A stretch of DNA of 64,000 nt from Sphaerolaimus hirsutus (lineage: Eukaryota; Nematoda; Chromadorea; Monhysterida; Sphaerolaimidae): positions 1,550,001 to 1,614,000 of the forward strand of contig OZ038458.1 in assembly GCA_964036195.1 (NCBI GenBank), written 5' to 3'. The translations under genes were made by a program, and so were the position numbers. Each line of letters begins with the position of its first letter. Within the stretch, counting starts at the first letter, position 1. This document shows positions 9,303 through 56,543 of the stretch, one piece after another. The notes under the pieces are model-generated. The model ran no database searches, was not told where the DNA came from, and was given only the letters and a program-made list of their open reading frames with translations.

Positions 9303-9494
9303 TTCTGGGGGAGTCCCAGACCCTGTAAAATGCCTTGTAAAATGTCAAATGGCATGCAAAGTGTCTAAAGTCATGCAAAATGCACGGAAGGTGGCAAATA
9401 TTTGCCATTTTGCTGGGCATTTTCCATGACTTTTGACACTTTGCATGATGTTTGACATTTTACAGGGCTTTTTACATGGTCTGGGAGTGGCACC
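9303..9494 (-). mobile_element. introner-like element, third full copy
   Basis: Read on the minus strand it starts GGTGCCACTCCCAGACC and ends GGGACTCCCCCAG, the same ends that act as GT and AG splice sites in genes A and B. The middle has the family arms TGTAAAATGTCAAA and ATGCAAAGTGTC in inverted order. Whether it is spliced here is unknown, because it lies within a hAT-like element beside exon-like fragments. Confidence 0.7.
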
Positions 9495-13578: not shown

Positions 13579-13632
13579 ATGGGCGACCAGTCAGAAATGA
13601 GCGAGTGGGAGTTTGCTCCAGCCAAGCAGCCG
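13579..13632 (+). CDS. gene A exon 1 (start codon, 18 codons)
   Basis: Begins GCCATGGGCGACCAG and ends at CCG before donor GTGCCA. That donor is the first bases of the introner-like element. The encoded segment is acidic and polar (MGDQSEMSEWEFAPAKQP). Confidence 0.75.
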
Positions 13633-16600
13633 GTGCCAGTCCCAGACCTTGTAAAAAGCCCTGTAAAATGTCAAATGTCATGCTCATGCAAAGTGTCGAA
13701 AGTCATGGAAAATGCCCTGCAAAATGGCAACCGAGTTGCCTTTTTGCAGGGCATTTTACATGACTTTTGACACTGCGTGACATTTGACATTTTAACGACA
13801 TTTTACAGGGTCTGTGACTGCCCCCAGAACGATGTCGACGCAGCGGAGCGGTCGGTGTGGACGTTCGACTGCGACGACTTTGTGCTCTCCCCCACAAACG
13901 TGAGTTCGGGAATTTGTGCTCCATTTTGTGATATATTCTGCACGCATTGACGATGGCAAATCCTTCCGTAAAAAAAGTTTTTGAATTTTCGAATTAGGTT
14001 TTCGATTTTTTTTGAACACTTTTCGAATTTTTCCGCTAGATTTTTGCATTTTCGAAATTATCCGGTCAATTTGGAATACCTACATCGTCATTTTTGCGGA
14101 GATGTGTTATTATGTGAGATTATTAAGTATTGATTTTATAAGAAATTATTTTTCCGAGTTTTATATTCAGAAAATATTTTACCCGTTTCGATTACCGGTC
14201 GAAATTTCGATTTTTTATATACCGTATTTCTTCGAAATACCCCCAGGGGGTTCATTTTGTCAGAGTGAGATTTTTGAGGGTAGGCGTAGTAAACAGTAGT
14301 TATCGTAGTAAAGAGTAGGCATTTTTATACCCAAAACAGGTAATAAATGCGTCCAAATAGGATATATTTGGACATAAAGACGTAGATTGCTACACAAACA
14401 AGTCTATGTGTAGCTGTGATACAAATAAGCAGTAATAAATACATCATGTACATTGCATACCTGATGTACATCATTCAAGAGGGGGGGAGCATTTCGAGGG
14501 GGGGGGGGTTATTATTTCTCCAGCCCTTTTTTAGGGAGGGGGTAATTCGAGGGGGCTTAATCAAAGGGGGAATTGTTCGAGGTGATACGGTAATAAACCC
14601 CCCTGGGGGTATGTAGAGGAAATACGATATGTGTGTGTGTCAAAATTTTATGTTTTATGCGTGTCTACAAATAAACCGCCTCCACAGATGCTGGCGCCCG
14701 CTGCCGGCTGGGGTGTCACTGTTCAGCAGGTCGAAGACTGGAAAGAAATCACAAACGCGGAACAGGTAGATTATTGTGGTGGGAGTTTTTAATTAACGTA
14801 GTTCCTCGAATTACCTTATTTTTCAGAGTGGAAATTTTGAAGGGGAGTTTAACGAGGGGTATTTCGGGCGGGGGGGGGGGTGTATTTTTTCGCCAGAATT
14901 TTTTTGTCCGATTATCAAATTGTTGTTTGTAACGTACCTATATGGACATCAAAAAATGCAACAAAACCGCCATGTATAAGACTCATTTATTTATATAAGT
15001 AAGTAGGCGGTATAAACCCGGTTCTATCATAACACACTCATTGTTCTGAGTTTCCCGTATCACAAACCGCAGCTTTTATTTTTTACGTTCTCTATACACT
15101 AAATTTGTGATGGGGGGGGGGAATTTACAAACATCTTGCGAAGGTCGCCCCTAATTGAATGAAGCCTGTTTCTGGCTCACATTTGATGGACACATTCGTT
15201 CCGCAGGTCCGGCACGACTGTGGCGAGGCCCTTGTTATGGAGAACCACGAATTGGCTGACGACATCGCAAATCGTATTTTATCACCTTTACGCGGAGTAT
15301 TTCGTCAACTCGCTTGTGGCGTCTTCGGAAAGTATTGTGCGTTTTGCGACGAGGAGATTTTTGGACCCCGGAGCTGGTAAGAAATTCTACGCCTATCCAG
15401 TGTTCCGCATTTTGAACAGTTCACAAACTGCTGTTTTTAGGAATTACATTCTCTTTGCATAATATTTGGGTGGGGGTATTTCAAGGGGGGGTATTTTGTC
15501 GTAAGCTCTCAGACCTATTTAGGTGTAGGCTATGGATGTATTTGGACAAGATGTAAATATCGGCTAGTGCATTCAACATGCCAATTTAAGCATATTTGAT
15601 ATCTCTAACATAGAGACTAAGTTCTAATCTCTAAGTTAGAGATATCAAATATACTTAAATTGGCATGTTGAAAGCACTAGCCGATATCTAAACTGGTGGA
15701 AAATATAAATGAGAAAATCACTTTATTGTATTTTACAGATCCCACATGAAAGCTGTCAGGCTGTCATCTTGTGTGAGGGTGACCCCAAGTGTTCACTATA
15801 TATACCCTAGGGGGCACCCCCCTCAGGCCACCCTTGGTGCAGAAAATAATTTTTTTATCATTTTTTTCTGGAAAATATAAATGAGAATTCCATACAAATT
15901 TTTGTTCCCGATGAAATTTATATTTTTAATAAATGTTTTTCTAGACACTTTAGACAAAAAAGTTTTTTTGACATTGGTAGAGTGTAAGTACGTGCAACTT
16001 TTCTACCCCCTCAGAAACCCCAGAAGCCCCACACAATGATGGCCTTGTTGATCAAATTAAAAAATTTTTTTGGAGAAAAACATAGGTTAGAAAAAGTGGA
16101 CAATCCACTATCCCAAGCTATTTATGGAGCACATGGGGGCCAGAATTGGCTCGCTCAGTGTCAGGGGCAACATATGGCTGCTCCTGGGCCCCGTTTTTGC
16201 ACTTATGTATTTTTTATAGCAAATGATAAAAACAGCCCTGTGTAAAGAGGGCACTCACGTGACAGCGCGTCCAGCGCCTGCAGTGTCATGATGCTAATCA
16301 CAAAATACTTGTGCCCATTCAATGTGGGCACTAATTATCTGATAAAAACCTATAGGGGCCGATGGGCAATGTGCCCTGTATCTAGTGTGACTGGCCCAGA
16401 CAAAAAAAGAGGCCATGTCCAGAAAATCAAAAATCACAGTTTTTTAATTACAACCACAATTTAGGTAATCACAAAGTTTAAAATCATTGTTGACATGGCT
16501 TTGTGGCACATGTCTGTATATTGGGGGTAATTTTTGTGTGGGGGAGTTGGCTGGGGGTCGAAATATACCCCCTACTTACCAGTGGGTCAAAAGATGGCTT

Positions 16601-34785: not shown

Positions 34786-34939
34786 ATTTTAAAACAAACT
34801 TCAAAACAAATCACTTTTTCAAAAGTCACATTTTCAAAAACTCTTTTTCTTCAAAAACTCAACATATTTTCACTTCAACTTCAAAAAACTTCTTCTCTCC
34901 TCCAATTTTTGCAAAAAAGAATTTTAACGCGGCGTTGAA

Positions 34940-36272
34940 TTAACGCGACGCTGAACGAGAACGCGGGCGCTGATAACGCGTGTTATGTTGACATGTATGT
35001 TTGGAAATACGGGAACGCATGTCTTTTTGTTCGCGGATGTATCTAGGGGGGCGGCGGTAATTTTTCCGAAGATAATTGTGGTAACTACGCGGCATTGGAG
35101 TTTTACAGCGGTTGAAATGGCTTTGTGGATAGCGTTCCGCCACTGTCTCTACACGCTGAACTGCAGACTGCCGTCGCATTGGCGACACATTTTCTTGTGG
35201 CCGCTCGTTGTTGTCCAGAAGTGCCTAGAATGTGTTAAACAATTCGATAATTGGTGTCATGGAGGCATTTAAGCGTATAATTAATGTGCCTGTGCAGCCT
35301 GGCGGCACATTTCTAGAGGGCTGACAGTCATGTGGCCATCGAAACGCATTAGCGGCCCATGTTCCGGATGGCGGAAAAATCGTGCGCCATCTAGATCCAC
35401 CGGGCCACTCTGTGTGGTACCCCGTTTTTGAGACAAGTTCGTTAAACATCAAAAATTCAGAAATGTTTTGGTAAAATAGTACCCACTGGCGGGAAAAAAG
35501 TTGTTTCCGTCTGCACTGAAATGGTAGTTGTACGCTTTTCCGATGTCAACTTTAATTTATTGAGGGCTTCTGTCAAGTCCCGAATTGTCACATTTTTCTG
35601 AGCTGACTCATTTTCTACTTTACTCAAGGCTTCACCCAGATGGCGATTTTCGATACGAAATCCAACCACTGTTCTATGGCGGTCGTCATTCTCGCACTGC
35701 AGCGAGTCGAAACCCCGCCGAAGGAGGCGATACTTCTCGCCCAGAGTGTCGAAGTCCTAAAATGGCAAAAAATCCGCGTCAAAAACGCATCTCCCCCGCC
35801 AACCACGTAAGGTCCACATTCCAAATGTATTCACCTGACACATTTGAGCGTAGATCTGTTTGTTGGCAGTGTGTTGTTTCTCAGCTGAACTGATGGACTG
35901 TTGTGCACTGGTGGATGGTTGTTGTTCCTCTGATTCATACTGTGGTGTGTGTGTTCCTTGTGTCAACTGATCCGCGTCAACTTGCAGCGTTTCGTCAACT
36001 GGATCTTCTATGTAGGTTGGCGTCGCGGGAGGTGCAGGAGAAGGAGTGTGCTCTTTGTCAGTAGAAGACTTGCTGCGTCGATGCTTGCGTCGACCTCCTG
36101 CCACCAATGAACACGTCAGCAAAAACAGCAAAAAAGTTGTTGTCAAGCACATCACGTTAAGGTTTTTCGGTCGCTTTTTTGTTGCTTTCACTCCATTTTT
36201 TTGTCTAAATTTGTTTACTAAAATACTGGGGAATGGGAAATAACTAGTAACCGACTTTCCTGAAGAGGTCAT
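34940..36272 (-). CDS. retrotransposon ORF 3, three phase-0 exons
   Basis: Exons 36272-35835, 35756-35487 and 35224-34940 have lengths divisible by three. Introns are GTGAAT...TTTTAG (78 bases) and GTGGGT...TTCTAG (262 bases). The ATG overlaps the pol stop as ATGA. Exon 1 encodes a basic N-terminus, a hydrophobic segment near residues 41-58 (TTTFLLFLLTCSLVAGG) and an acidic Pro/Thr/Gln-rich stretch. Exon 2 encodes a heptad-type coiled coil (LSKVENESAQKNVTIRDLTE). Exon 3 is Arg-rich (YRRPPRYIRE, SRSASR) and ends in TAA. The position is that of an envelope gene, but no fusion peptide or cysteine pattern supports that. A membrane or RNA-binding accessory protein fits better. Without splicing, exon 2 also reaches its own stop at 35457. 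Confidence 0.65.
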
Positions 36273-39200
36273 TTATCAAAATTTTTCACTTTCCAGCAAT
36301 AACGCCCTGGCACTGTTTCTAGAGCGTTGCCGCGCTGAAAAGACAAATTTGGGCCACTCGTTTCTACCACTATGAATGGCCCTGAAAAACAGGGAATCAT
36401 TTTATCCGGAGAAAAAGTCTGCACCATAATTTTGTCCCCAACATCAATATCACGTGAGGGTTTGCTATTGAAGTATTCGTGATATTTTGCCCTATTGTTT
36501 TCACTTTGTGAAAGTGCCACATTGCGTACATGTTCTGGGTTGCTGTCTCTTGCTGCAGCATAAAACAAATTCCAGTGTGGCAGGTGGCCAAAAATAAGAA
36601 AAAATGGGCAGCAAGTTAAATTTTTATTCATTGTGAGATTATGTTTCAAAATCACAACAGGTAGCAGTTCTTTCCAGTGGGTTTTTGGGTGCTGAGCTCT
36701 CACAAAACTGTAGATTTCTCGCATCCGCCCGTTCACTCGTTCTACCATGCCATTTGCCGATGGGTTATGGGCGAGAACCGGGGTGTGTTTGACACCAAAT
36801 TGCGAGCATAACAAGTGGAAATCCGAGTTTAAAAATTCAGTGCCTTGGTCAGTGATGATGAGACGCGGTGCCCCGAATACTAAAAATATATGTTTCATCA
36901 CAGCTTTGGCCACAGTTTCGCCTCTGCAGGATGAGAGTGGAAAAGCAATTACATATCTCGTGAAGGCGTCTACCGCGACTAGAACTTTTGACTTTTTATT
37001 GTTATACTCAAATTGCATCGTATCCATGTGAATAACGTCAAATGGTTGCTGAGGTGTTTCTGTAGTGCCTAAAGGGCTTGGTCGCAATTGGTGTGGTTTC
37101 CTTGTCATACACTCCGAGCATTCTTTGCAATATTGCAAAATATCATTTTGCATATCTGGCCATTCAAAATACTGGCAAAGAAGGTTCATGGTTTTCTGCT
37201 GACTGCCATGACTAGCATAGATACCCATATGTGCATGTTCTAAACATGCTTGTTGCCATGACCGAGGTGGCCATATCGCGTAAGAATCGTCCTTAGTGGG
37301 TGTTCTGTGATATAAAACATTGTCGATGACAACGGCATTTTCCAAAAAGTCAGGGTTGTTTTCTAATTGTGCAATGATGTCATTCAATTCCGGGTCTTGA
37401 CATTGGGCAGTTGCCCAATCAAATTCAACTTGTTGAGTGATCAGCTTTGACTGATGAATAGGCCCTGTTAAGTGAAAACCTGGGGTTGTTTTCATTGCTA
37501 AACCCCGCACCAAGTTTGTGGGAAAATCCAACTCATTGTCTCCAAATTCTGGTTCACTTATGGGATTGCGTGATAACGCGTCCACCACACAGTTAAATTT
37601 TCCGGCCCTGTGGACAAATTTAATTACTCTCTCCTGTAGGAAGATTGCCCAACGTTCTAATTTACTGTGTAATGGTGTCTTCAGCACCAGTTGTATACCA
37701 CTATTATCTGTGATAACTATCAATTTCTGCCCTTCCACAAAATCGGCCAAGCGGCAAACTGCCCACGCAATGCATAAACTTTCCAGCTCTGCTGCGGAAA
37801 AAGACTTGTGTGGATGTGTCAATCTTTTGGAGATGAATGCAATGGGATGTAATTTGCCATCATCGCTGTACTGTGATAAGACTGCCCCTAGTCCTACTTG
37901 GCTAGCGTCTGTCTCCAAAACAAATGGGCGCCCATCTCGATTCGGGTGTATGAGAACAGGTGGCGATGTCAGGCAGTATTTTAAAGTACTCCAAGCGTCC
38001 AACATTGCTTCCGTCCATTGGAACGGCGTGTTTCCATGCTTGGGCACTTTACCTTTTAAAGTTTCGTAAAGTGGCGCTGCTATGTGGCTGTAATTGGGTA
38101 TGAAATGTGAATAATACACGCATTTGCCCAAAAACTTTCGCAAATCTTGTTTGGTATGAACTTTTGGTAGATTGACCATTGCAGCCACGCGGGATGGTGC
38201 TGGCGAGATGCCATCTGGTGTGATCTGGTGTCCTAAATACTTTAACGAGTGCGCAAAAAAGTTGCACTTTGAAGGTTGCATTTTCAAATTCGCCCAGCGC
38301 ATCCGCGAGAACAGCCTTCGCAAGTGCTCTAAGTGTTCACCGACGTCATCGCTGCAAACCAAAATGTCGTCGATGTATGCGCGCACCCACGCGCGTGACA
38401 AATTTTTGTTCAAATCCATGAGCATCATGTTGATGAGGCACATGAAAGTCGCACCAGCGTTGCAGGTACCGAACGGCATTCTTGTGTACCTGTACTGTCC
38501 GAGGCTGCACACAAAGCTGGTGCGCTCACATGTATCTTCGTCGGTCAACGGTATATTGTAGTAACCGTGTCTGATGTCGACGGCGCTGAAAATTCCCCGT
38601 CCTGAGAATTCGGCTAAAATTTCTCCTATGCGAGGTAATGGGTAACTGTCGATTTTCGTGATCAAATTCAGTTGTTTAAAATCGACGCAAAATCTAAAAT
38701 TGTCTGTTCCCTTGGGCGCAATAGTAATCGGCGACGCCCATGGCCCATTTGACCGCTCGATTATTCCTTCTTTTAACATGCTTCGAATTGTTTTGTTTAT
38801 AAAATCTCGTTTGTGCGGCACTTCGTAGCGGGGTGCCTGCTTAATTGGCGGGTGTTTGGGGTCAGTTTCGATGGTGTGCGAAATCAGAGTAGTTTTCCCG
38901 ACATCATAATCATGACATGAATAAATGTCATGATATTCTAAAAGTAATTTTTTGAAAGCAGATGTTTGCTGGTCAGTCAGGGGGATTCTATTCACTGCTG
39001 GCAAATGCTCCCAAATGTATTCGAAACGTTCTTGGGGCGTGGTCGGTACTTTCTCATGAAAATTGTTTGCATTAGGATCTATGGGAGGCGAAGGTAATTG
39101 TACAGCAGGTTTCGCATGAGTGGTTGCTTGAATCGCTGTCGCGTGTGCATGCATTCCAATTGATTTTTGAAAAGGGACTTGTTCAAATAATTTTGAAAAA

Positions 39201-39865
39201 CGTGGGCCAGGGTAATAAACGCTATCGTTTGGTATCACCTGCATTTCTGCAATTGTTTGTCCCTTTTCTAATTCAATTGGAGTGTCAGATGGGTTAAAAA
39301 GTGTTAAGTATGTGCGTTTAGCACTTGTACCCACTAATGTATTGTACATATTGATTCCCTTGGTGTCAGGAATTCCTGTGTTTGAAAATACTGCAGTGCA
39401 TTGAGACCACTTCGTTATACTGAAATTACTTTGCCTGTGCCCAACTATCACAGGCAATTTCGCGTGTCCACGTGCCGGAACATACATCCGTTTTTTCAGT
39501 TGAACTAATGACATCATTTTTTCTAAAAACTCAGTTTCTAAACTGTCCAGTTGAAGTGCGGCTGAATCGTCAACAGGTGGATCGATGTGTGTATCCTTGT
39601 CCAAAGCCATTGGTATAATCCAAGATAACTTTAAATAAGGCATAATATCTGTCCCAGCTAAAATCTCGGGCATTGCATCCGGCAGCATGTTGACTAGAAT
39701 GACTGCCAACACTTTACGTGTTACATTATCCACAGGTGATGTGTGTTCAAAAAACAAAGCGATTTCACACATCGCTCCATCTGTTGTTGTTCCTGTGACC
39801 ATGTGTACACGAATTTTTGTTGGTTTTAAATATTTCTCCACATCCAAATTACTTTTTTTTAGCAA
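36269..39865 (-). CDS. pol: pol: protease tail, reverse transcriptase, RNase H, integrase
   Basis: Intact 1198-codon frame. Approximate residues: end of the aspartic protease with the ILAGTD flap-side motif (about 70), reverse transcriptase with YIDDIL (about 495), RNase H with DAS (about 650) and TDNSG, integrase with an HH-CC zinc site (about 880-920), catalytic MDTM (about 947), TDQGTEF (about 1005) and NGMVERVNG (about 1040), then a GPF module near the end. All catalytic residues are present. The frame opens without a usable ATG and relates to gag by a +1 shift at a run of eight A (39853-39860), so expression needs frameshifting or this run has changed length. Makes and integrates the cDNA of the element. 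Confidence 0.9.
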   Translation of the reverse strand: MLKKSNLDVEKYLKPTKIRVHMVTGTTTDGAMCEIALFFEHTSPVDNVTRKVLAVILVNMLPDAMPEILAGTDIMPYLKLSWIIPMALDKDTHIDPPVDDSAALQLDSLETEFLEKMMSLVQLKKRMYVPARGHAKLPVIVGHRQSNFSITKWSQCTAVFSNTGIPDTKGINMYNTLVGTSAKRTYLTLFNPSDTPIELEKGQTIAEMQVIPNDSVYYPGPRFSKLFEQVPFQKSIGMHAHATAIQATTHAKPAVQLPSPPIDPNANNFHEKVPTTPQERFEYIWEHLPAVNRIPLTDQQTSAFKKLLLEYHDIYSCHDYDVGKTTLISHTIETDPKHPPIKQAPRYEVPHKRDFINKTIRSMLKEGIIERSNGPWASPITIAPKGTDNFRFCVDFKQLNLITKIDSYPLPRIGEILAEFSGRGIFSAVDIRHGYYNIPLTDEDTCERTSFVCSLGQYRYTRMPFGTCNAGATFMCLINMMLMDLNKNLSRAWVRAYIDDILVCSDDVGEHLEHLRRLFSRMRWANLKMQPSKCNFFAHSLKYLGHQITPDGISPAPSRVAAMVNLPKVHTKQDLRKFLGKCVYYSHFIPNYSHIAAPLYETLKGKVPKHGNTPFQWTEAMLDAWSTLKYCLTSPPVLIHPNRDGRPFVLETDASQVGLGAVLSQYSDDGKLHPIAFISKRLTHPHKSFSAAELESLCIAWAVCRLADFVEGQKLIVITDNSGIQLVLKTPLHSKLERWAIFLQERVIKFVHRAGKFNCVVDALSRNPISEPEFGDNELDFPTNLVRGLAMKTTPGFHLTGPIHQSKLITQQVEFDWATAQCQDPELNDIIAQLENNPDFLENAVVIDNVLYHRTPTKDDSYAIWPPRSWQQACLEHAHMGIYASHGSQQKTMNLLCQYFEWPDMQNDILQYCKECSECMTRKPHQLRPSPLGTTETPQQPFDVIHMDTMQFEYNNKKSKVLVAVDAFTRYVIAFPLSSCRGETVAKAVMKHIFLVFGAPRLIITDQGTEFLNSDFHLLCSQFGVKHTPVLAHNPSANGMVERVNGRMREIYSFVRAQHPKTHWKELLPVVILKHNLTMNKNLTCCPFFLIFGHLPHWNLFYAAARDSNPEHVRNVALSQSENNRAKYHEYFNSKPSRDIDVGDKIMVQTFSPDKMIPCFSGPFIVVETSGPNLSFQRGNALETVPGRYCWKVKNFDK

Positions 39866-42092
39866 TATCTCTCAAAACTGCGATAGGGATGATAGTCCTG
39901 GTGCATCCAGTATCCAGCAACATATTGCAGGGAATATTTTCGACAAAAACTTGTGCATACACCTGTGGGCCATTACTCACTTCAACGCAGACGCAGACTT
40001 TCTGTTTATCTCCAACACATGTGAAAGCGCGTACATTTTGATCAGTAAATTTTGTTCCAAACACGGGGGGCGGTCCACTACTATCACTTATCATTTGATC
40101 AAAGCTCAAGAGGTTGCTCGAACAATTCAGCAAAGATGCCCGCGACGCGCTGCTCTCCGTTGTCTGTGTGTTTAATTTTTCACTGTGGCAAACTGCCCAA
40201 AAATTGCGGTGCCACTCAGAGAACTGACCAGGGTCAGCCTCGAACATTTCTGCTACTCGATGGCGAAACTCGGTGCAGTATTGTTCCCACGGCGGCGTGT
40301 CGTCGTCGCTGGTGCCCATGTTGGCGCCTGTAGTCGTGTCGGTCACTATTTCTGCGTCAGGGATCAATTCACCATACTTTGCAAATGAGGTCTGTTTGGC
40401 TTGGGGGGCACTGGAAGTATGTTGGGGTCCAATACGTTTCACGTGCCCATAGCCATCTGCTTTTGGGCTTGTTTGATTTGGGTTAGTGGCAGTGTTTGCC
40501 GTGTCACCCATTAGTTTTCGTTGCTGCGTGATTCTGCAGTCACTGGTGCAGTGCCCAGTGTGATTTGGTAGTGGGCACCATGGGTTGGTTTGGTTTTCGG
40601 CAAAAAATTGCTTGAAAGTTGGGCGCGCTGGTCGCGTGCCTCGATCATTTTTGTCCGTTTTTTGGGTGGTCATTTTTTCTAGTTTTACAGTCCGGAAATA
40701 TTCGTCGATGCACTGCATCAGTTGTGGGACTGTGGCCGTCGATGTTTTGCTTTTAGCCTTGAAATTGGCCATTACAAAATGATCAAATCTTGTTTCATCA
40801 TATCGGTGCCATATTTTTGCCAGCACCAATTTGTCTACCAGCACTCTTTCAAAATTTACAGATTCTTTTAACTCATCCAGGATTTTAGCTAACAATCGAA
40901 TGTAGAAATCAATCATGTTTTCAGTTTTGAACATGGCGGCCATTTCCCATTCGGGGTAAGTGTAAGACTTGTCAGTAGTTTTGAACACTGATGTCAACTC
41001 TTTCATAACATGCTCAAAATTGCTCAAATCAGCAGGTGTAAATAGGGCGGTTAGCACTTTGTGCGCCTCTCCCGTGAGCTTCGTTGTCAAAACTTCCATC
41101 CAAAAATGTTGCAAAAGTGCCGGATCGGGAATGGATAGCGCCGCCATTTGCACAATGCGGTGCCATTCCGCAAAACTTTTCAGATCAGATTTACCAGAAT
41201 ACACTGGAATTTTGTCAAAGATATGAGGCCGGATCACAAACCAATTTTGCAACAATTCCGGTCTTGTTTGGTGATTTACTGCTAAAGGCAATTTCGCCAA
41301 ATTTTTGACATGCCATGGGTTTTCCTGTCTGGTTTTTACCCCGGGCTTTTCTGGGGCGCCGCAGGGCGCCTCTTGCAGCACATGTGGTTCCGCGTGTGGG
41401 GTGCCAGCTCGGAAACGCTGCAAATTTGCAAATTGCCGCTTCAAACTTTCAAAAGCATCTAAAAATTCGCGCTCAGACTGAGTGTTGCCGAGCGGCGCTA
41501 CATCATTCGTGACTGTGAACGGCGGCGCGCGTGGCCTAATGTCCAGTTCCCCACCCAAAAAATCATCAACCAAAACACGCTGATACTGGGAAAGTTGCGG
41601 CGTCAACAAAACCTGATCCGCAAATTGTACATCACGCAAATCTCACATGTCCGTCCGAGCTTGTACTGTCGCATCTGGATGTACCACGGTCGCTGCGCGG
41701 GCATGGCGGTCATGCGCAACGGCTCCGACATGGTCTCGGCCGTCATCTGCACCTGGTAGGCGTACTCCGCCGTCACCTGCGGATTGCTCGACGCCTGTTG
41801 TGTATGAAAGCGTGAATTGCGGTAAACTCGGCCACGCAACGGCGACAAATGCGCGTCAACTGGTGAACTGTAACGCGCAATTGGCAAACGCGGCGGCGCA
41901 GCAGCGCGTCGAGGCGGCGCGGCGCATGGGTAGGCGCCCTGCAAGCGCTAACTGTTCGTCCTGGAAACGGCGGACAGCCTCCTCGGTCATCCCAGGTCTA
42001 GGCATGACGTTGACTGGATGGCTCCTAGTGTGCCGTTGGACGATCGCATCCTCATAGTCTGACACGCTGTTCTCCTCGTCTGTCATCAGCAT
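39849..42092 (-). CDS. gag: gag-protease region, broken by frameshifts
   Basis: The first likely ATG is at 42092 (MLMTDEENSVSDYED). The reading passes through three frames: to about 41860, about 41900-41650, and 41642-39849 (596 codons). At least two indels have therefore hit the N-terminal part. The long frame holds a capsid-like helical region, a zinc-knuckle-like cluster (WCPLPNHTGHCTSDC) and the aspartic protease active site LLDTGCTRTI close to its end. The stop after IAKKK falls inside the protease domain, whose remainder is in the pol frame. No restored sequence is proposed. Confidence 0.75.
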
Positions 42093-42176
42093 GGACTTGT
42101 CTGCGGACGACAGCCAGCGACGACAGGAAATCGGCAGCGGATGACAGCCACTCTCCACGCGGACAGCAAACTGGGA

Positions 42177-42195
42177 TTCCCCAGCACGTCCACCA
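42177..42195 (-). other. primer-binding site of the Gypsy-type element
   Basis: Minus strand TGGTGGACGTGCTGGGGAAT starts one base after the LTR end (CCGAAA). It agrees closely with TGGTGGACGAGCTGGGGATC of the small LTR element, so both appear to use the same tRNA class as primer. Confidence 0.65.
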
Positions 42196-42196
42196 C

Positions 42197-42331
42197 TTTC
42201 GGAACCGCGGCAGTCGAAATGGAGAGATTTATGGTAGATTTATTATCGTCCGACCAATCCTTTCTCACACCCATATGCACTATTAAATAGTCACAGCGAA
42301 GGAAATACAACTAAATCAACACTATCCAACA
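42197..42331 (-). repeat. 5-prime LTR, uninterrupted
   Basis: 135 bases, minus orientation TGTTGGATAGTG to GGTTCCGAAA, matching the two pieces of the other LTR. An unusually short LTR for this superfamily. Confidence 0.85.
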
Positions 42332-52100: not shown

Positions 52101-55100
52101 GTTACGTTAGAACACGGTTTATACATCTACTTACTTAAATATATAAGGCTGTAGACTCTATACATAGTGTTTTTTTGTTGCATTCGTACGTCTGCGTACG
52201 TTATTAGTACTGGGAGTTAAACAAATTTCTGGCGAAATAATAAGCCCCCCCCCCCCTCGAATTCCTCCCCCCCCCGAAATACCCCCTCAAAATTCTCACT
52301 CTGAAAAAATAAACCCCCGGGGGTTATTTCGAGGATATACGGTATCTCAAAATCCCACATCCCACACGGCTAAAATTATCACAAATTAGAGCACTTTTAT
52401 CAATATCAATCTGAACAAGGCAAGCATCACCTGTGGCCCCGCTGGTGCGAGCGCAAATGGCCCCTGTTAGCAAAGTCCTTCTCTGCATCACGGGGGCACA
52501 TGGTGCAGCGGAACCGGCCAGTCTCCGGATTGTACCCGTCATTGAGTATCGATTCCCGATTGCCGTGGTAGCGGCGGTGCGCCCGCAGCTGCTCCCTGCA
52601 AATTAGAGACAGTTTGAATCGGGCTGCCCGAAAAATCGGGCAAATTGAATTTCGTACCTGGATTCAATCGGGTACCCGACGCACCACAGACACGCCAATT
52701 TTTGCTGGCCCCGATGGTCGCTGCTTGAAGATTTTTGGTCACCGTTGTACAGCGACTTGCCCCCGGTTATCTGTGGATTGAATGTGCCAGTGTGCTTTTC
52801 GTGTAGTGGTGGAAAAATGGCGGTAGAAATGTGAAGGCGATATTCAAAAATGGCGATGCGTGCCACAGAAAATGGTACCAACCGAGTACATAGATAATGC
52901 TGGCAAAAAGTGTTTTAATTTTTGATGTTTTTGAATGACTTTGTGCATTTAGAATTTTATCCAAAAATCATGTACATACAGTGTCTTAATTTTTGCTGTT
53001 TTGCGTTTCATTCTATGTCTAGTTAGAACACTAAAATTCTACTGTTATTTAGCACACGAAAATTCTTTTACTTTTCCCATTTTTAATTTTTTTCACTTTT
53101 TAAATTTTTATCTCACCAGTTTATTCTGGATTTTAGAATTTTGTTTTCAAAATTTTCGGAAAATATTTTTTATTATTTATGACTACCGTATTACCTTGAA
53201 TTATCCCCCTTACATAAACCCCCCCTCGAATAAATCCCCCTCAAAATGGGCTGTGGAAATAATAACCCCCCCTCGAATACCGAAATACCAGGGTACTGAA
53301 AGCGTAAATTTTCTCTCGTAATACAAAACCCCAAGCTGAACAGTAAGGAGTTTCAAAAAAAATTACGCTTATGCTTTTTTGATGTGTTCCTCGGTATTTT
53401 ACATATACCTTACGCTACAGGTTTAATACACAAAATTTGGAAAGTGTATTTATGTTTACGCCTACGCTTTCCAATAATACCGGTATTTTAACAACACTGG
53501 CAGACACCACCAAAAATACTGAAAAAAATTCTCCTAAAAAACCGTTTGAATCTCCAAATTTAAAAAATTTCCTATTTTCTAGAATCTATTGTTGGCTAGC
53601 GGTGGGATAAACATAAAAAAAAGCCAAAAATGTTTTAAAAAACCTTTTCGAATTTTTGTTTGCTATCATTTCATTAGGCATCAGAATGAGAATGCAAAAC
53701 AGCAAAAATTACAGTACTGAGCATGATTAACAAAGGGGAAAAATATGAGAAGTCGAAAATCATTTAAAGTTCAGACGGCTGTTTTAAGGAGATGTATTTT
53801 ATAGTTTTATTGGAGTCCTCGAAAGCTCCTGAATGTACCCAAGATGGAGCTTACATACGTGGTGAATTAGAACAACACAATAATCACGTTTACATGTAAA
53901 TCACTTTTTATGCTTACACACAGCACCAAATCGTTGTGCTCTTAACACACTCACCCCTTTTAACTTTCACATTTTTCAAAATCACATTTTTTATGGTCCA
54001 CTGGAGGTGGATGGCATGTCGGCCAATGGATTCTCTGCGTTGTCGTTGGCCTGCATGTTGTGGTCGATGGTTGTGGTCGGTGTGGTGATTGTAGTCATGG
54101 TTGTCGTTGGCGTCTGCATGCTGGTTCCCGGCAGTTTGTCGGTGCCCGTGTTGTTGTTGGTTGCGATCTGTGTTGTCGTGATGTTGTTATGATGATGTCC
54201 TAAATATTCCAATTCGATTGGCAGTTCATTCATGTGGACCTGTTGAAAATGGGTGAAATCTTCACTCATTAAGAAATTTTCTTCATCAGGCGTGATAGGT
54301 GAGCCCTCTATTGGATCTTGCAGTCCAATCAGTTTGCTTTCAAAAGATAGGCTTTCATATGGAATGTGATTGTTCGGTGCAATTTTCATTACCTGTGTTG
54401 CATTAGCATTTTTAGCATTTTTACGCTACATGAGAAGTGTTTTCATTTGTGTTTTAGCATTTTTAGCATTTTTACGCTAAATAAGAAGTGTTTTTAGCTT
54501 AACACGATTCCATTTTTAATGTAACAATTAATCCTACGGGTGTATAAGAAACAAACTGGAACTTCGGTGGTGTCAGTGGGTTGTTTTTCGACCAGTGGTG
54601 TAGTTTGCATGGCATTGGTGTTGGCTTGATATGCAGGTGGTTGGAACACTGACTGTTTCAACGCCATTTGCGCCATGGTGTCTGCCACATTGGTCATTCC
54701 CGACACACTATTGCCCAAGATGTTGGAGCCCATGTTGTCTGCCAGCGAGGGCATCATGTTGGTTGAGCTTGTGGCAGTTGAATTTTCATTGCCATTCTGA
54801 TACACCACAATCACTTGCGGTTCATTCCAGTCATTATCCTGTGTTTTTATAGTTGTTAATGTTTTATAGGCTGAGATATTTTACTTTAAATTATCTTTAA
54901 CTTTTTCCATTTTATTTATTTTTCAAATCCATTTTTTATTTTACAAAATTCAAACTTTTGAAAATACTCAGTTATTATTTCAGTTTTTCTGATTTTCATA
55001 TTATCTCCAGAGATAGATTTCCATTGTGTGACAAGCGTGAAACTCCCATAAAGAAAACCTGATACGCATGTCTGCTGTATGGGGTTGTTTTCCAGGGCCT

Positions 55101-56543
55101 GCCCCGGTGGCCACCCCTGAATGTGCCCCTGAAACCCCTGGTGGCTCGGCCGCGGCCCATTTGGCCTCTGTTGTTTCCCAAATTCCACCCATTATTGTCC
55201 GACAATGTGTGGATTAGCCTTTGTGGATTTTCCAAGGCTTGTTGTTCAATCAGTGCCTCCAAACCCTTTGGCTGCATATTTGCCATGTTATTTGCCCCCT
55301 GTTGATTCGCCAATGGTATGGGAATTGTGACGAGCTGTCAAATTCGGGGAATTTTCTCATGTTTTTAGTGTTTTAATTATTTCCATAAGTTTTCAAATCT
55401 GTTGGCCGAACTACCTGGGGGTACATCATTTTGATGTATGCCAATTGCTGATTTGCCCCTGAGCATTTTGCATGTTCATTTTGCACTTTTCCCAATTCCG
55501 TTTTAGTGTGCACCAAAGCTCTAGCTAATTCGCTGTTGTTGGTTTCCCTTCCAACCACTTCTCCCGCCAGCATTTGAGTGTATGGACCACACCTATGGTA
55601 GAAATAGGACAAAATAGTACCTTTGATTTTCTATTTTACTGAGTTACTGAGAAGGTGAATTGTGTTAATTCCCAATTTAGTCACTTGGTTTTTCCAATTC
55701 ACAATTTTATTTAATTTCCAAGTCAATTTCCGATTTCCATCTTCCAATTTTCCAAAATTTTCAATTTCCAAAAATTAATTTCTAATTCTATTCCGCGGAC
55801 ACACCTGCGGCACGTCTGCATGTGATTTTTGGCCGTGAAGCAATATCCATGCGAGAAGTCCTGGGTTCGATCCCCAGCTCGTCCACCATGTGTTTTAAGG
55901 AGATGTATTTTATAGTTTTATTGGAGTCCTCGAAAGCTCCTGAATGTACCCAAGATGGAGCTTACATACGTGGTGAATTAGAACAACACAATAATCACGT
56001 TTACATGTAAATCACTTTTTATGCTTACACACAGCACCAAATCGTTGTGCTCTTAACAACGGCCCTAGGGCTTAGCATTCTGTAAAAATAATCGCACAAC
56101 TTTTCCCAATTTTGAAGTATTTTCAAAGAGCATTTCACACAAAAACGGATGTATCTTAGTGGTGTATTTGAAACTTTATTTCATGTGCATCCAAAGTAAA
56201 GTTCCAAATCCACGACAAAGTGCGGCGCGTACCTTGTTCCGGATGTGAGAAACTTCCCCATCGCTGTCGCTGTCGCTGTCACTGACTTCCGATTGCTCCA
56301 CGGGGCTGGCGCTGGGCGAATCCTGGGGGCACTCCCAGACCCTGTAAAACGCCCTGTAAAATGTAAAATGTCATGCAAAGTGTCAAAAGTCATGGAAAAT
56401 GCTCTGAAAAATGGCAACTCAGTTGCCACTTCGCAAGGCATTTTCCATGACCTTTGACACTTTGCATGACATTTTACAGGGCTTTTTACAGGGTCTGGGT
56501 GTGGCACCTGGGCGAAGAATGGCAACGGCGATGACTCGACCAT
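48963..56543 (-). CDS. gene B: C2H2 zinc-finger protein, exons 1-7
   Basis: Exons 56543-56508, 56322-56233, 52770-52658, 52595-52431, 51799-51631, 50753-50529 and 49140-48963 join with phases 0,0,2,2,0,0. Fingers: KLACLWC with LRAHRRYH (split by a 62-base intron), FRCTMC with LRSHQRGH (long loop), FICKRC with LRHHAKRH, a degenerate finger lacking its first cysteine, then LQCEWC with LASHKLQH and a C-rich module (FTCVTC, KCFCSDWESF). Probably nuclear and nucleic-acid binding. Finger order and intron phases match gene A on the opposite strand. Intron 1 is an introner-like element. Intron 2 hosts the small LTR element. Confidence 0.8.
49143..50524. other. no gene; CAGAGTTG-family tracts at 49452-49978
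   Basis: ACGTTTACGTTTTCC tracts with a right terminus TTTGTACAACTCTG at 49978. The left terminus near 49452 is altered and target copies do not match. The rest is unrecognised AT-rich sequence. Confidence 0.45.
50529..50753 (-). CDS. gene B exon 6 (finger 5 and C-rich module)
   Basis: Acceptor CAATTGCGCAG, then KLQCEWCGKKFAKECSLASH, FTCVTCDTEYTDKRKFDED, KPFKCFCSDWESFSELELIK and HGRVC. An upstream AG at the edge of the neighbouring TIR element (CGACTTTTAG) would also be in frame and would add element-derived codons. Confidence 0.75.
50771..51409. mobile_element. TIR element (AGGCGTCC family), target copy CATTTG
   Basis: AGGCGTCCAATTCTAAAAG to CTTTTAGAATCAGACGCCT, exact CATTTG at 50765-50770 and 51410-51415, 639 bases, reversed relative to 20489-21120. 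Its end lies 18 bases from gene B exon 6. Confidence 0.8.
51631..51799 (-). CDS. gene B exon 5 (finger 3 plus degenerate finger)
   Basis: Acceptor CCTTTCGCAG to donor GTATGT, phase 2 in, phase 0 out. SFICKRCNAKFSTRG and LRHHAKRH form a normal finger. KLRRGDCGRHFSTAAGLHAH has arginine where the first cysteine should be, so it should not bind zinc in the usual way. Confidence 0.8.
51916..52342. mobile_element. TA-flanked element, complete (CCGTATTT family)
   Basis: CCGTATTTCCTCGAAATAC after TA and TATTTCGAGGATATACGG before TA, with C-rich arms and the internal ACGTTAGAACACGG block. In intron 4 of gene B. Confidence 0.75.
52431..52595 (-). CDS. gene B exon 4 (histidines of finger 1, finger 2)
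   Basis: Acceptor CTAATTTGCAG to donor GTGATG, 165 bases, phase 2 at both ends. Encodes EQLRAHRRYH, NPETGRFRCTMC and ANRGHLRSHQRGH. Homologue of gene A exon 5. Confidence 0.85.
52658..52770 (-). CDS. gene B exon 3 (CxxC half of finger 1)
   Basis: Acceptor TTCAATCCACAG to donor GTACGA, 37 codons plus two bases. It ends KLACLWCVGYPIES. Joining exon 4 over a 62-base intron completes a C2H2 finger, which supports the frame and both splice sites. Confidence 0.8.
52773..53774. other. gene B intron sequence with decayed elements
   Basis: CCGTATTACCTTGAATTATC at 53186 is a TA-flanked start whose partner has decayed. TACGCTT/AAGCGTAA tracts at 53345-53500 ending TTTTAACAACACTG are CAGAGTTG-family. 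Nothing coding was seen. Confidence 0.5.
53780..53947 (-). repeat. 3-prime LTR of the small element
   Basis: 168 bases, identical base for base to 55891-56058 by eye. Confidence 0.9.
53950..53963 (-). other. polypurine tract of the small LTR element
   Basis: Minus strand TTAAAAGGGGTGAGTG runs up to the LTR start TGTTAAGAGC, the expected plus-strand priming site. Confidence 0.7.
53991..55573 (-). CDS. cargo ORF of the small LTR element, four phase-0 exons
   Basis: Exons 55573-55415 (53 codons), 55334-55059 (92), 54838-54557 (94) and 54392-53991 (133 plus stop) are each a whole number of codons. Introns: GTAGTT...TTGACAG (80 bases), GTTTTC...AACACAG (220), GTTTGT...AACACAG (164). Exon 1 is helical and coiled-coil-like (SELARALVHTKTELGKVQNE). 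Exon 2 ends in an RGG-type basic box (MGRGRATRGFRGTFRGGHRG). Exon 3 is Asn/Gln/Ser-rich. Exon 4 is acidic, then His- and Thr-rich, ending DMPSTSSGP. An RNA-binding, low-complexity protein is suggested. No known gag, env or host family is recognised. Unspliced, the frames are closed by stops, so splicing is required for the full 372-residue product. Confidence 0.65.
55829..55888 (-). other. primer-binding site extended into tRNA sequence
   Basis: On the minus strand, two bases after the LTR, TGGTGGACGAGCTGGGGATC starts the site. On the plus strand this reads as a tRNA 3-prime end: T arm CTGGGTTCGATCCCCAG, acceptor strand CTCGTCC, then ACCA. The likeness continues upstream toward GGCCGTGAAGC, far beyond the usual 18 bases, though no full cloverleaf forms. 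Confidence 0.6.
55891..56058 (-). repeat. 5-prime LTR of the small element
   Basis: 168 bases, identical to the other copy; bounded by the primer-binding site on one side and target copy ACGGC on the other. Confidence 0.9.
56233..56322 (-). CDS. gene B exon 2 (acidic)
   Basis: Acceptor GTGCCCCCAG to donor GTACGC, 30 codons, phase 0 at both ends, with a Ser/Asp run (EVSDSDSDSDGEVSHIRNK) typical of CK2-type acidic linkers. Confidence 0.75.
56323..56507 (-). mobile_element. introner-like element forming intron 1 of gene B
   Basis: 185 bases, GTGCCACACCCAGACC to GGTCTGGGAGTGCCCCCAG on the minus strand. TTCGCCCAG is repeated: once immediately before the donor and once two bases after the acceptor. 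The element thus brings both splice sites and has a target duplication. Same orientation and phase as intron 1 of gene A. Confidence 0.85.
56508..56543 (-). CDS. gene B exon 1 (start codon, 12 codons)
   Basis: ATG at 56543 in strong context (GAAGATGG), encoding MVESSPLPFFAQ. Removing both the element and the duplication would change frame relative to exon 2, so the present frame was fixed after insertion or the true start lies elsewhere. Confidence 0.6.

Follow-up and report, generated by a model that had tools for sequence, protein, structure and literature searches.

A short LTR retroelement found in the window, that is, in the whole 64,000-nucleotide stretch analyzed here (C14:1550001-1614000 in the searched genome of 348 Mb and 762 contigs from the nematode Sphaerolaimus hirsutus), is non-autonomous and very probably derives, by deletion, from a Ty3-type element of 10.5-10.9 kb. 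The deletion would have arisen during reverse transcription, and the parental lineage carries a head-to-head pair of genes, the sense gene S and the antisense gene A.

A recent, internally deleted insertion and its full-length relatives

The element (53780..56058, minus strand) was identified as an internally deleted Ty3-type LTR retroelement by its LTRs, target-site duplication (TSD) and relatives. Along the minus strand, the order is LTR, primer-binding site (PBS), exons, polypurine tract (PPT), LTR. The two 168 bp LTRs, 5' in element orientation at 55891..56058 and 3' at 53780..53947 (both minus strand), are 100% identical and have ends of the TG...CA type (TGTTAAGAG...CTTAAAACA on the element strand), and the repeat ACGGC flanks the element on both sides (53775..53779 and 56059..56063). 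The PBS, TGGTGGACGAGC (12 nt; 55877..55888, minus strand), is shared with a full-length relative, the PPT, AAAAGGGG (53954..53961, minus strand), precedes the 3' LTR, and the internal region of 1943 bp holds coding exons. The identical LTRs together with the TSD support a recent insertion and imply that the normal integration machinery was used. Next to the element, there is a long hairpin (56362-56478) with 58-bp arms that are 90% complementary; similar copies are located at 9303-9494 and 13632-13829 of the window. This is probably a small foldback repeat. Rfam matches close to the element fall on hairpins outside it and score under the gathering scores of the respective families.

The genome search for other copies with the same ORF, which the original prediction had suggested, yielded three that span most of the gene region, at C14:18.94 Mb (96%), C1:6.36 Mb (85%) and C13:22.15 Mb (85%), hereafter the C14, C1 and C13 copies. 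The second LTR begins 10.7 kb off in the C14 copy and 10.3 kb off in the C13 copy, for a full-length size of 10.5-10.9 kb; the LTRs of a pair differ at 1/168 and 2/168 positions, respectively, and the TSDs are TATAT and TGCTT, so that 5-bp duplications are present at three copies including the one in the window. The C1 copy consists of the 3' part only, within the stretches read. Between its LTRs, the C14 copy encodes, in order, a gag-like frame with protease, reverse transcriptase (RT) with RNaseH, and integrase (Pfam domains RVP, RVT_1 with RNaseH, Integrase_H2C2 and rve), gag being assigned from its location and from a zinc-knuckle match that is weak (E 0.027) and under the cut-off; the C13 copy shows 87-94% DNA identity to it. 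The TG...CA LTRs with a short TSD, the tRNA primer site with a PPT, and, in the C14 copy, the domain order PR-RT-RNaseH-IN are those of Ty3/Gypsy elements (Metaviridae); the domains themselves are absent from the window copy. The pol frame is broken into several pieces in both the C14 and the C13 copy, and the latter also has a frameshift in exon S3 and an altered intron-2 donor. With both full-length copies damaged, no autonomous partner is shown within the subfamily.

Another Ty3-type element located at 35-42 kb of the window (34900-42300, minus strand; RT, RNaseH and integrase) was rejected as the parent because its integrase is just 29% identical. The 3' gene of this element likewise appears to contain an intron (GT...AG at 35834-35757); one of its exons resembles a coiled coil by eye, and its end is Arg-rich. 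Its comparison with S1 gave one weak match (33% over 36 aa, E 0.036).

The original prediction depicted a young LTR element that carries a four-exon gene instead of gag-pol. Its case for recency, which was based on the identical LTRs and the intact duplication, is borne out, and the multi-exon ORF is indeed the only coding content of the window copy, although not of its relatives, where gag-pol and gene A are present. The cargo reading itself, under which a small LTR element took up a host gene of four exons and moves it in place of gag-pol, is hardly credible. It draws on the facts that S alone is left in the window copy and that the LTRs are identical, but in the full-length copies gag-pol is present alongside S, which occupies the env position beside the 3' LTR; S is present across divergent elements and co-diverges with integrase (see below); and the window copy lost gag-pol and most of the first exon of S, including its start, by deletion. 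No single-copy host gene for S was seen among the at least 21 places where exon S1 occurs: 16 of 21 have A opposite, two are the window and C1 copies, and of the other three, one (L057) was read in part. Thus, the full-length relatives, the junction and the exon/intron comparison led us to reject host-gene cargo.

The deletion junction

Relative to the full-length copies, the window copy lacks 8.3-8.6 kb, gag and pol included, and it is the sole one with this deletion among the copies listed in the genome search. In the C14 copy, the 12-nt primer site TGGTGGACGAGC is followed by leader sequence, whereas in the window copy 29 nt more of tRNA-Ala(TGC) come after these 12 nt, and then GATATTGCTTC... 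of gene S. The resulting 41-nt copy of the 3' part of the tRNA with CCA (55848..55888, minus strand), the first 12 nt of which are the PBS, meets gene S at a 3-nt homology, ATG on the element strand (55848..55850, minus strand), as established by comparison with the parental sequences. Both the C14 and the C13 copies diverge from the tRNA after 12 nt, the latter with one mismatch inside the 12. In the two tRNA-Ala genes read at C2:21.91 Mb, CCA is not encoded.

To judge from these sequences, read-through of the primer tRNA past the usual stop followed by a jump would be the simplest account of the junction. Plus-strand strong-stop DNA would have copied the tRNA-Ala primer for 41 nt, without the usual stop after the PBS; its end would then have jumped to the ATG within gene S on the template, bypassing everything from the leader through gag, pol, gene A and the A/S interval to the start of S; and the deleted product would have been integrated in trans, presumably via the machinery of a relative. 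Conceivably, the deletion from the leader to gene S was instead made in the chromosome after integration, by end joining, for which a 3-nt junction homology is typical too; moreover, L049/L050, a relative with a related LTR, has a 47-nt tRNA copy, of another tRNA-Ala form. However, the window copy follows the primer tRNA exactly for 29 nt past the parental PBS, and neither the C14 nor the C13 copy contains this stretch, which makes end joining very unlikely.

Copies of the tRNA-Ala primer across the genome

A genome-wide count of an exact 26-nt pattern with the CCA complement gave 17 occurrences (window counted), compared to 0 for the reversed control. Of the 25 tRNA-matching places listed besides the window, we measured 18 (19 loci with the window), leaving out three at C2:21.91 Mb (a tRNA gene cluster), those at C6:2.24 Mb and C14:25.98 Mb, and second, more diverged matches in the fetched C170 and C13:11.51 Mb stretches. 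All 18 copies begin with TGG, the complement of CCA, and the T-loop position usually occupied by m1A58 is copied unchanged in 19/19. The copies are 40, 41, 43, 44, 44, 45, 45, 46, 46, 46, 47, 47, 47, 47, 48, 48, 49, 67 and 75 nt long, such that 15/19 are 43-49 nt long and end at tRNA nucleotides 27-33; because copies shorter than about 40 nt are undetectable by the route used, only the upper edge of this range is informative.

An AATAAA-type signal is found 34-51 nt upstream of the tRNA copy in 13/19 loci (window counted), as expected of an LTR. The LTR character of L031 and L037 is less clear, and a second LTR was sought at L049/L050 only (the element of L040). The upstream 120-nt ends of the 19 loci form 14 groups at a gapped alignment score of at least 45 (shuffled maximum 28), with one further pair scoring 44. 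Three of the five pairs with common LTR ends (window/L040, L024/L036 and L025/L035) carry different tRNA-Ala forms, which supports repeated copying of the tRNA. L049/L050 is a 9-kb relative with identical 158-bp LTRs that combines an open 1308-aa gag-pol piece with a 47-nt tRNA copy; hence, long copies are not tied to deletions. At L040 (C13:8400351), a short stretch of anticodon-arm sequence recurs in inverted orientation after the tRNA copy, as if the strand had folded back.

A match of 43-49 nt might also be a selected, extended PBS and not a scar of primer read-through, given that the long match stands beside many different LTR-like ends and that one element with such a match has identical LTRs and an open gag-pol piece (L049/L050). 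We consider an extended PBS rather unlikely, albeit a serious contender: the C14 and C13 copies have just 12 nt, and the tRNA copies end at scattered places, from 40 to 75 nt. Under primer read-through, the next block to copying of the tRNA would presumably be m2,2G26. The inherited tRNA-Ala copies stand in contrast to Ty1, in which the primer sequence is reportedly not inherited. They also pass the T-loop base, unlike in HIV, where, according to the available text of the source, the main stop is at m1A58 (PMC13191261).

Structure and evolution of gene S

Four exons on the minus strand were delimited by frame and divergence: S1 (55415..55592), coiled-coil-like by eye; S2 (55059..55334), RGG-rich; S3 (54557..54838), Asn/Gln/Ser/Thr-rich; and S4 (53991..54392), acidic and then Thr/Asn-rich, with the stop at 53993-53991. 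The introns between them are 80, 220 and 164 bp long, all in phase 0, and the S1-S4 frame comprises 372 aa. These are the four same-strand exons and three phase-0 introns that the original prediction described. The ATG of that predicted frame (55573) lies within S1, and comparison with the full-length copies identifies, ahead of S1, the last 46 bp of a truncated exon S0 (55805..55850, minus strand) and the phase-2 intron 0 (55593..55804, minus strand; placed by the splice sites of relatives). In full-length copies, S0 opens with a conserved ATG, so that S has five coding exons with one phase-2 intron. GT follows S0 and AG precedes S1 in 12/12 aligned rows, and in 12/12 rows S0-S1 encode the motif C-x5-H-x3-C-x2-C followed by sequence that is coiled-coil-like by eye; S is RGG-rich in the C14 subfamily.

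When the window or C14 copy is compared with the C13 or C1 copy, divergence changes at the predicted exon boundaries: introns differ by 9-28%, plus many gaps (introns 1, 2 and 3 by 9-15%, 10-14% and 19-28%, respectively), and exons by 2-7%. Intron 0 with the S0 piece is 19% diverged between the window and the C13 and C1 copies. In the closer C13/C1 pair, the contrast is weak (exons 1.1-4.0%, introns 3.7-7.0%). A frame-by-frame test, on the C14/C1 pair only, gave the fewest amino-acid changes for the predicted frame in 4/4 exons. Purifying selection, a check put forward with the original prediction, is detected in the four comparisons of the window or C14 copy with the C13 or C1 copy (dN/dS 0.17-0.20; NG86, 370-372 codons), with Fisher p of 3e-10 to 7e-9 in the three comparisons tested; by the same method, C13/C1 gives a dN/dS of 0.30 and window/C14, with six changes, one of 0.27. 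From the predicted ATG on, S1-S4 contain no stop in the window, C14 and C1 copies; the C1 copy has 1-nt gaps in S0 and in S1 ahead of this ATG. Going by the splice boundaries and purifying selection, S is a real gene, and its introns are present across element copies, in line with the original view that they were kept through retrotransposition. In the window copy, the A/S interval and most of S0 are lost, so that the product would need a start in the LTR and would be truncated; it is expected to have no function.

The S1/S2 intron is precisely absent in seven related elements (L051-L055, L057 and L060) and present in the C14, C13 and C1 copies, L049, L058, L059 and the window. The seven elements group together in an unrooted tree (support 85), which is compatible with a single precise loss as well as with a single gain, according to where the root is placed. 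This difference amounts to intron turnover inside a retroelement gene.

An antisense gene head to head with S

In full-length copies, the interval between integrase and S contains conserved blocks that code on the opposite strand. The corresponding gene A consists of at least six coding exons, antisense, opposite the five sense exons of S. Between the C14 and C13 copies, A (322 codons) shows dS 0.183, dN 0.026 and dN/dS 0.14, and integrase (326 codons) shows dS 0.150, dN 0.024 and dN/dS 0.16; over the tests of S, A and integrase, Fisher p ranges from 7e-9 to 4e-11, with site counts for A and integrase back-calculated from rounded dS and dN. Exon aD on its own is not clear-cut, with 7 synonymous and 8 non-synonymous changes, and in the C14 copy exon aB is interrupted by an in-frame stop that its relatives lack. 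A start codon and GT donor are present in 9/11 rows (ATGTC in 8, ATGGA in 1; L052 has CTG at this position and L059 is unaligned), and GT follows aE in 11/11 rows. The starts of A and S point away from each other, 209 bp apart in the C14 copy, and between them GTATCCA is found in 10/11 loci and GTATACA in the remaining one, several loci being close relatives. We infer that this interval might be a bidirectional promoter, a suggestion for which we see an even balance.

The arrangement was followed in 12 stretches from 11 further elements, chosen among the tRNA/gene-region and aA matches, not randomly. S0, S1 and aA stand head to head beside an integrase (49-71% identical) in 9/11 of these elements, and all five A exons sought are present in 8 of the 9. 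L056 has S4 only, and L057 has S0-S3, aE and part of aD; S4 was found in 3/11 elements, in part because some stretches ended early. Genome-wide, exon S1 occurs at at least 21 places and aA at at least 27, and aA lies within 4 kb, head to head, at 16/21 S1 places; the five without it are the window copy, the C1 copy, C2:20.62 Mb (L057), C14:37 kb and C6:2.24 Mb. Against integrase distances, Mantel r is 0.948 for A and 0.877 for S0-S1 (0/5000 permutations each; 10 loci, with L053 and L057 left out as incomplete and L049 and L055 represented by partial integrase). On this sequence evidence, the A/S pair is old and long-lived in the element lineage.

Gene A also occurs on its own. At 11 aA places there is no S1 nearby; we fetched eight stretches around nine of these. 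Six of the eight stretches (L065-L068, L071 and L072, at C14:2.48 Mb, C16:16.01 Mb, C15:2.93 Mb, C9:25.85 Mb, C6:5.23 Mb and C14:1.49 Mb, respectively) represent one repeat, 93-99% alike over about 5-8 kb, which extends past the fetched stretches; within these six, the A exons are present and no match to S or integrase was found. A frame break interrupts aC in L066, and L065 contains a second, partial A. Of the remaining two stretches, L069 contains A and integrase, with no match to S, and L070 contains A and an integrase fragment. The two copies of the repeat that were scanned have long inverted repeats and 252-bp tandem repeats, and one repeat copy is located some 62 kb away from the window. 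Beside one copy, L073:4671-7606 contains several similar Cys- and Asn-rich, coiled-coil-like ORFs; a Pfam scan of two of these gave no convincing match.

The presence of A without S and integrase in another repeat, at the six fetched loci, would be compatible with an A/S pair that originated as a separate mobile unit or a captured host gene pair, entered the lineage once and is a passenger only; third genes are common to other elements as well (PMC5408684, in the text accessible to us). Such a passenger status is nevertheless unlikely, because co-divergence with integrase and integrase-like dN/dS argue that A and S serve the element and do not ride free.

Candidate role of S and comparison with known systems

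The original prediction recognized no known family for S, and this holds: there is no Pfam family for S, and the 372-aa S1-S4 product (without S0) found nothing in a set of 5.8 billion proteins, by a method that detects only proteins of similar length with 5-residue words in common. Profiles of exon aA and of the joined A exons likewise found nothing in this set. For A, Pfam gave weak scattered matches only, none convincing; the PDB search returned nothing convincing for S or A; and no relative of A was found in viral contigs. A hydropathy scan of one S and one A protein detected no hydrophobic segment, the best 19-residue Kyte-Doolittle means being 0.97 (S of the C14 copy) and 1.15 (A of L049), so that the transmembrane segment of a retroviral env is missing from these two proteins. 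Hence, despite the env position and the introns, it is extremely improbable that S is an envelope-type protein made from a spliced message, considering the lack of a hydrophobic segment and of a Pfam match.

A sense gene with up to four introns implies that the genomic RNA must stay unspliced, which calls for a retrovirus-like solution, and the conserved S is a concrete candidate for this task. Tentatively, and by analogy with CERV of the Cer1 element, S may act in regulation or export, allowing genomic RNA that contains introns to exit the nucleus unspliced.

More broadly, we might be dealing with a Ty3-type lineage that possesses a permanent, internally promoted, head-to-head pair of multi-exon, non-env genes, one of which would handle the intron-bearing genomic RNA of the element itself while the antisense one is constrained to the same degree as integrase. 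Many LTR families of this genome would inherit tRNA-Ala primer copies that reach as far as the anticodon stem, so that read-through would be a recurrent source of internal sequence and deletion derivatives. We regard this combined picture as quite possible, if somewhat short of an even chance.

TRIM elements are defined by a very short internal region without coding sequence. The window element resembles them in its short LTRs, PBS, PPT, lack of gag-pol and non-autonomous state; it differs in that its internal region of 1.9 kb contains coding exons that were under past selection, and in that a single deleted copy, not a family, came up in the genome search. No head-to-head, intron-bearing gene pair in an LTR element was found in the open-access literature, as far as its accessible text goes. 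LTR elements of bdelloid rotifers with an ORF3 show that unrelated retroelements can have third genes in common, much as A occurs in a second repeat as well; the ORF3 types are enzymatic or env-like, and the available text describes no head-to-head intron-bearing pair (PMC5408684).

Antisense genes are known from the plant elements Grande, RIRE2 and Retand (PMC7264820, PMC11963269). As in Grande and Retand, the antisense gene is located between pol and the 3' LTR in the relatives of the window element, and it is deleted in the window copy. The antisense ORFs of Retand mostly carry TRP28, and the accessible part of the source does not mention introns (PMC11963269); A, in contrast, has several exons and no convincing Pfam match, with none to TRP28 (PF04195) in our scans, and, unlike the plant genes, it stands head to head with S. 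The available text of both plant papers calls the role of retroelement antisense genes unknown (PMC7264820, PMC11963269), and an intron-bearing antisense gene with integrase-level constraint bears on what such genes do for retroelements.

Among the systems compared, the nearest experimental parallel that we found for S appears to be CERV of Cer1 from C. elegans, a 517-aa product of a spliced five-exon mRNA, encoded in the env position and needed for export of unspliced Cer1 genomic RNA (PMC10309623, here and below as far as its available text goes). CERV exons 1-3 share the gag frame, unlike S, and no antisense gene is mentioned for Cer1. In organization, the likeness extends to Ty3/Gypsy membership, an env-position gene of five exons, the lack of obvious relatives outside nematodes, an intron-containing genomic RNA that must be exported, and a potential leucine zipper in CERV next to the coiled-coil-like sequence seen by eye in S (PMC10309623).
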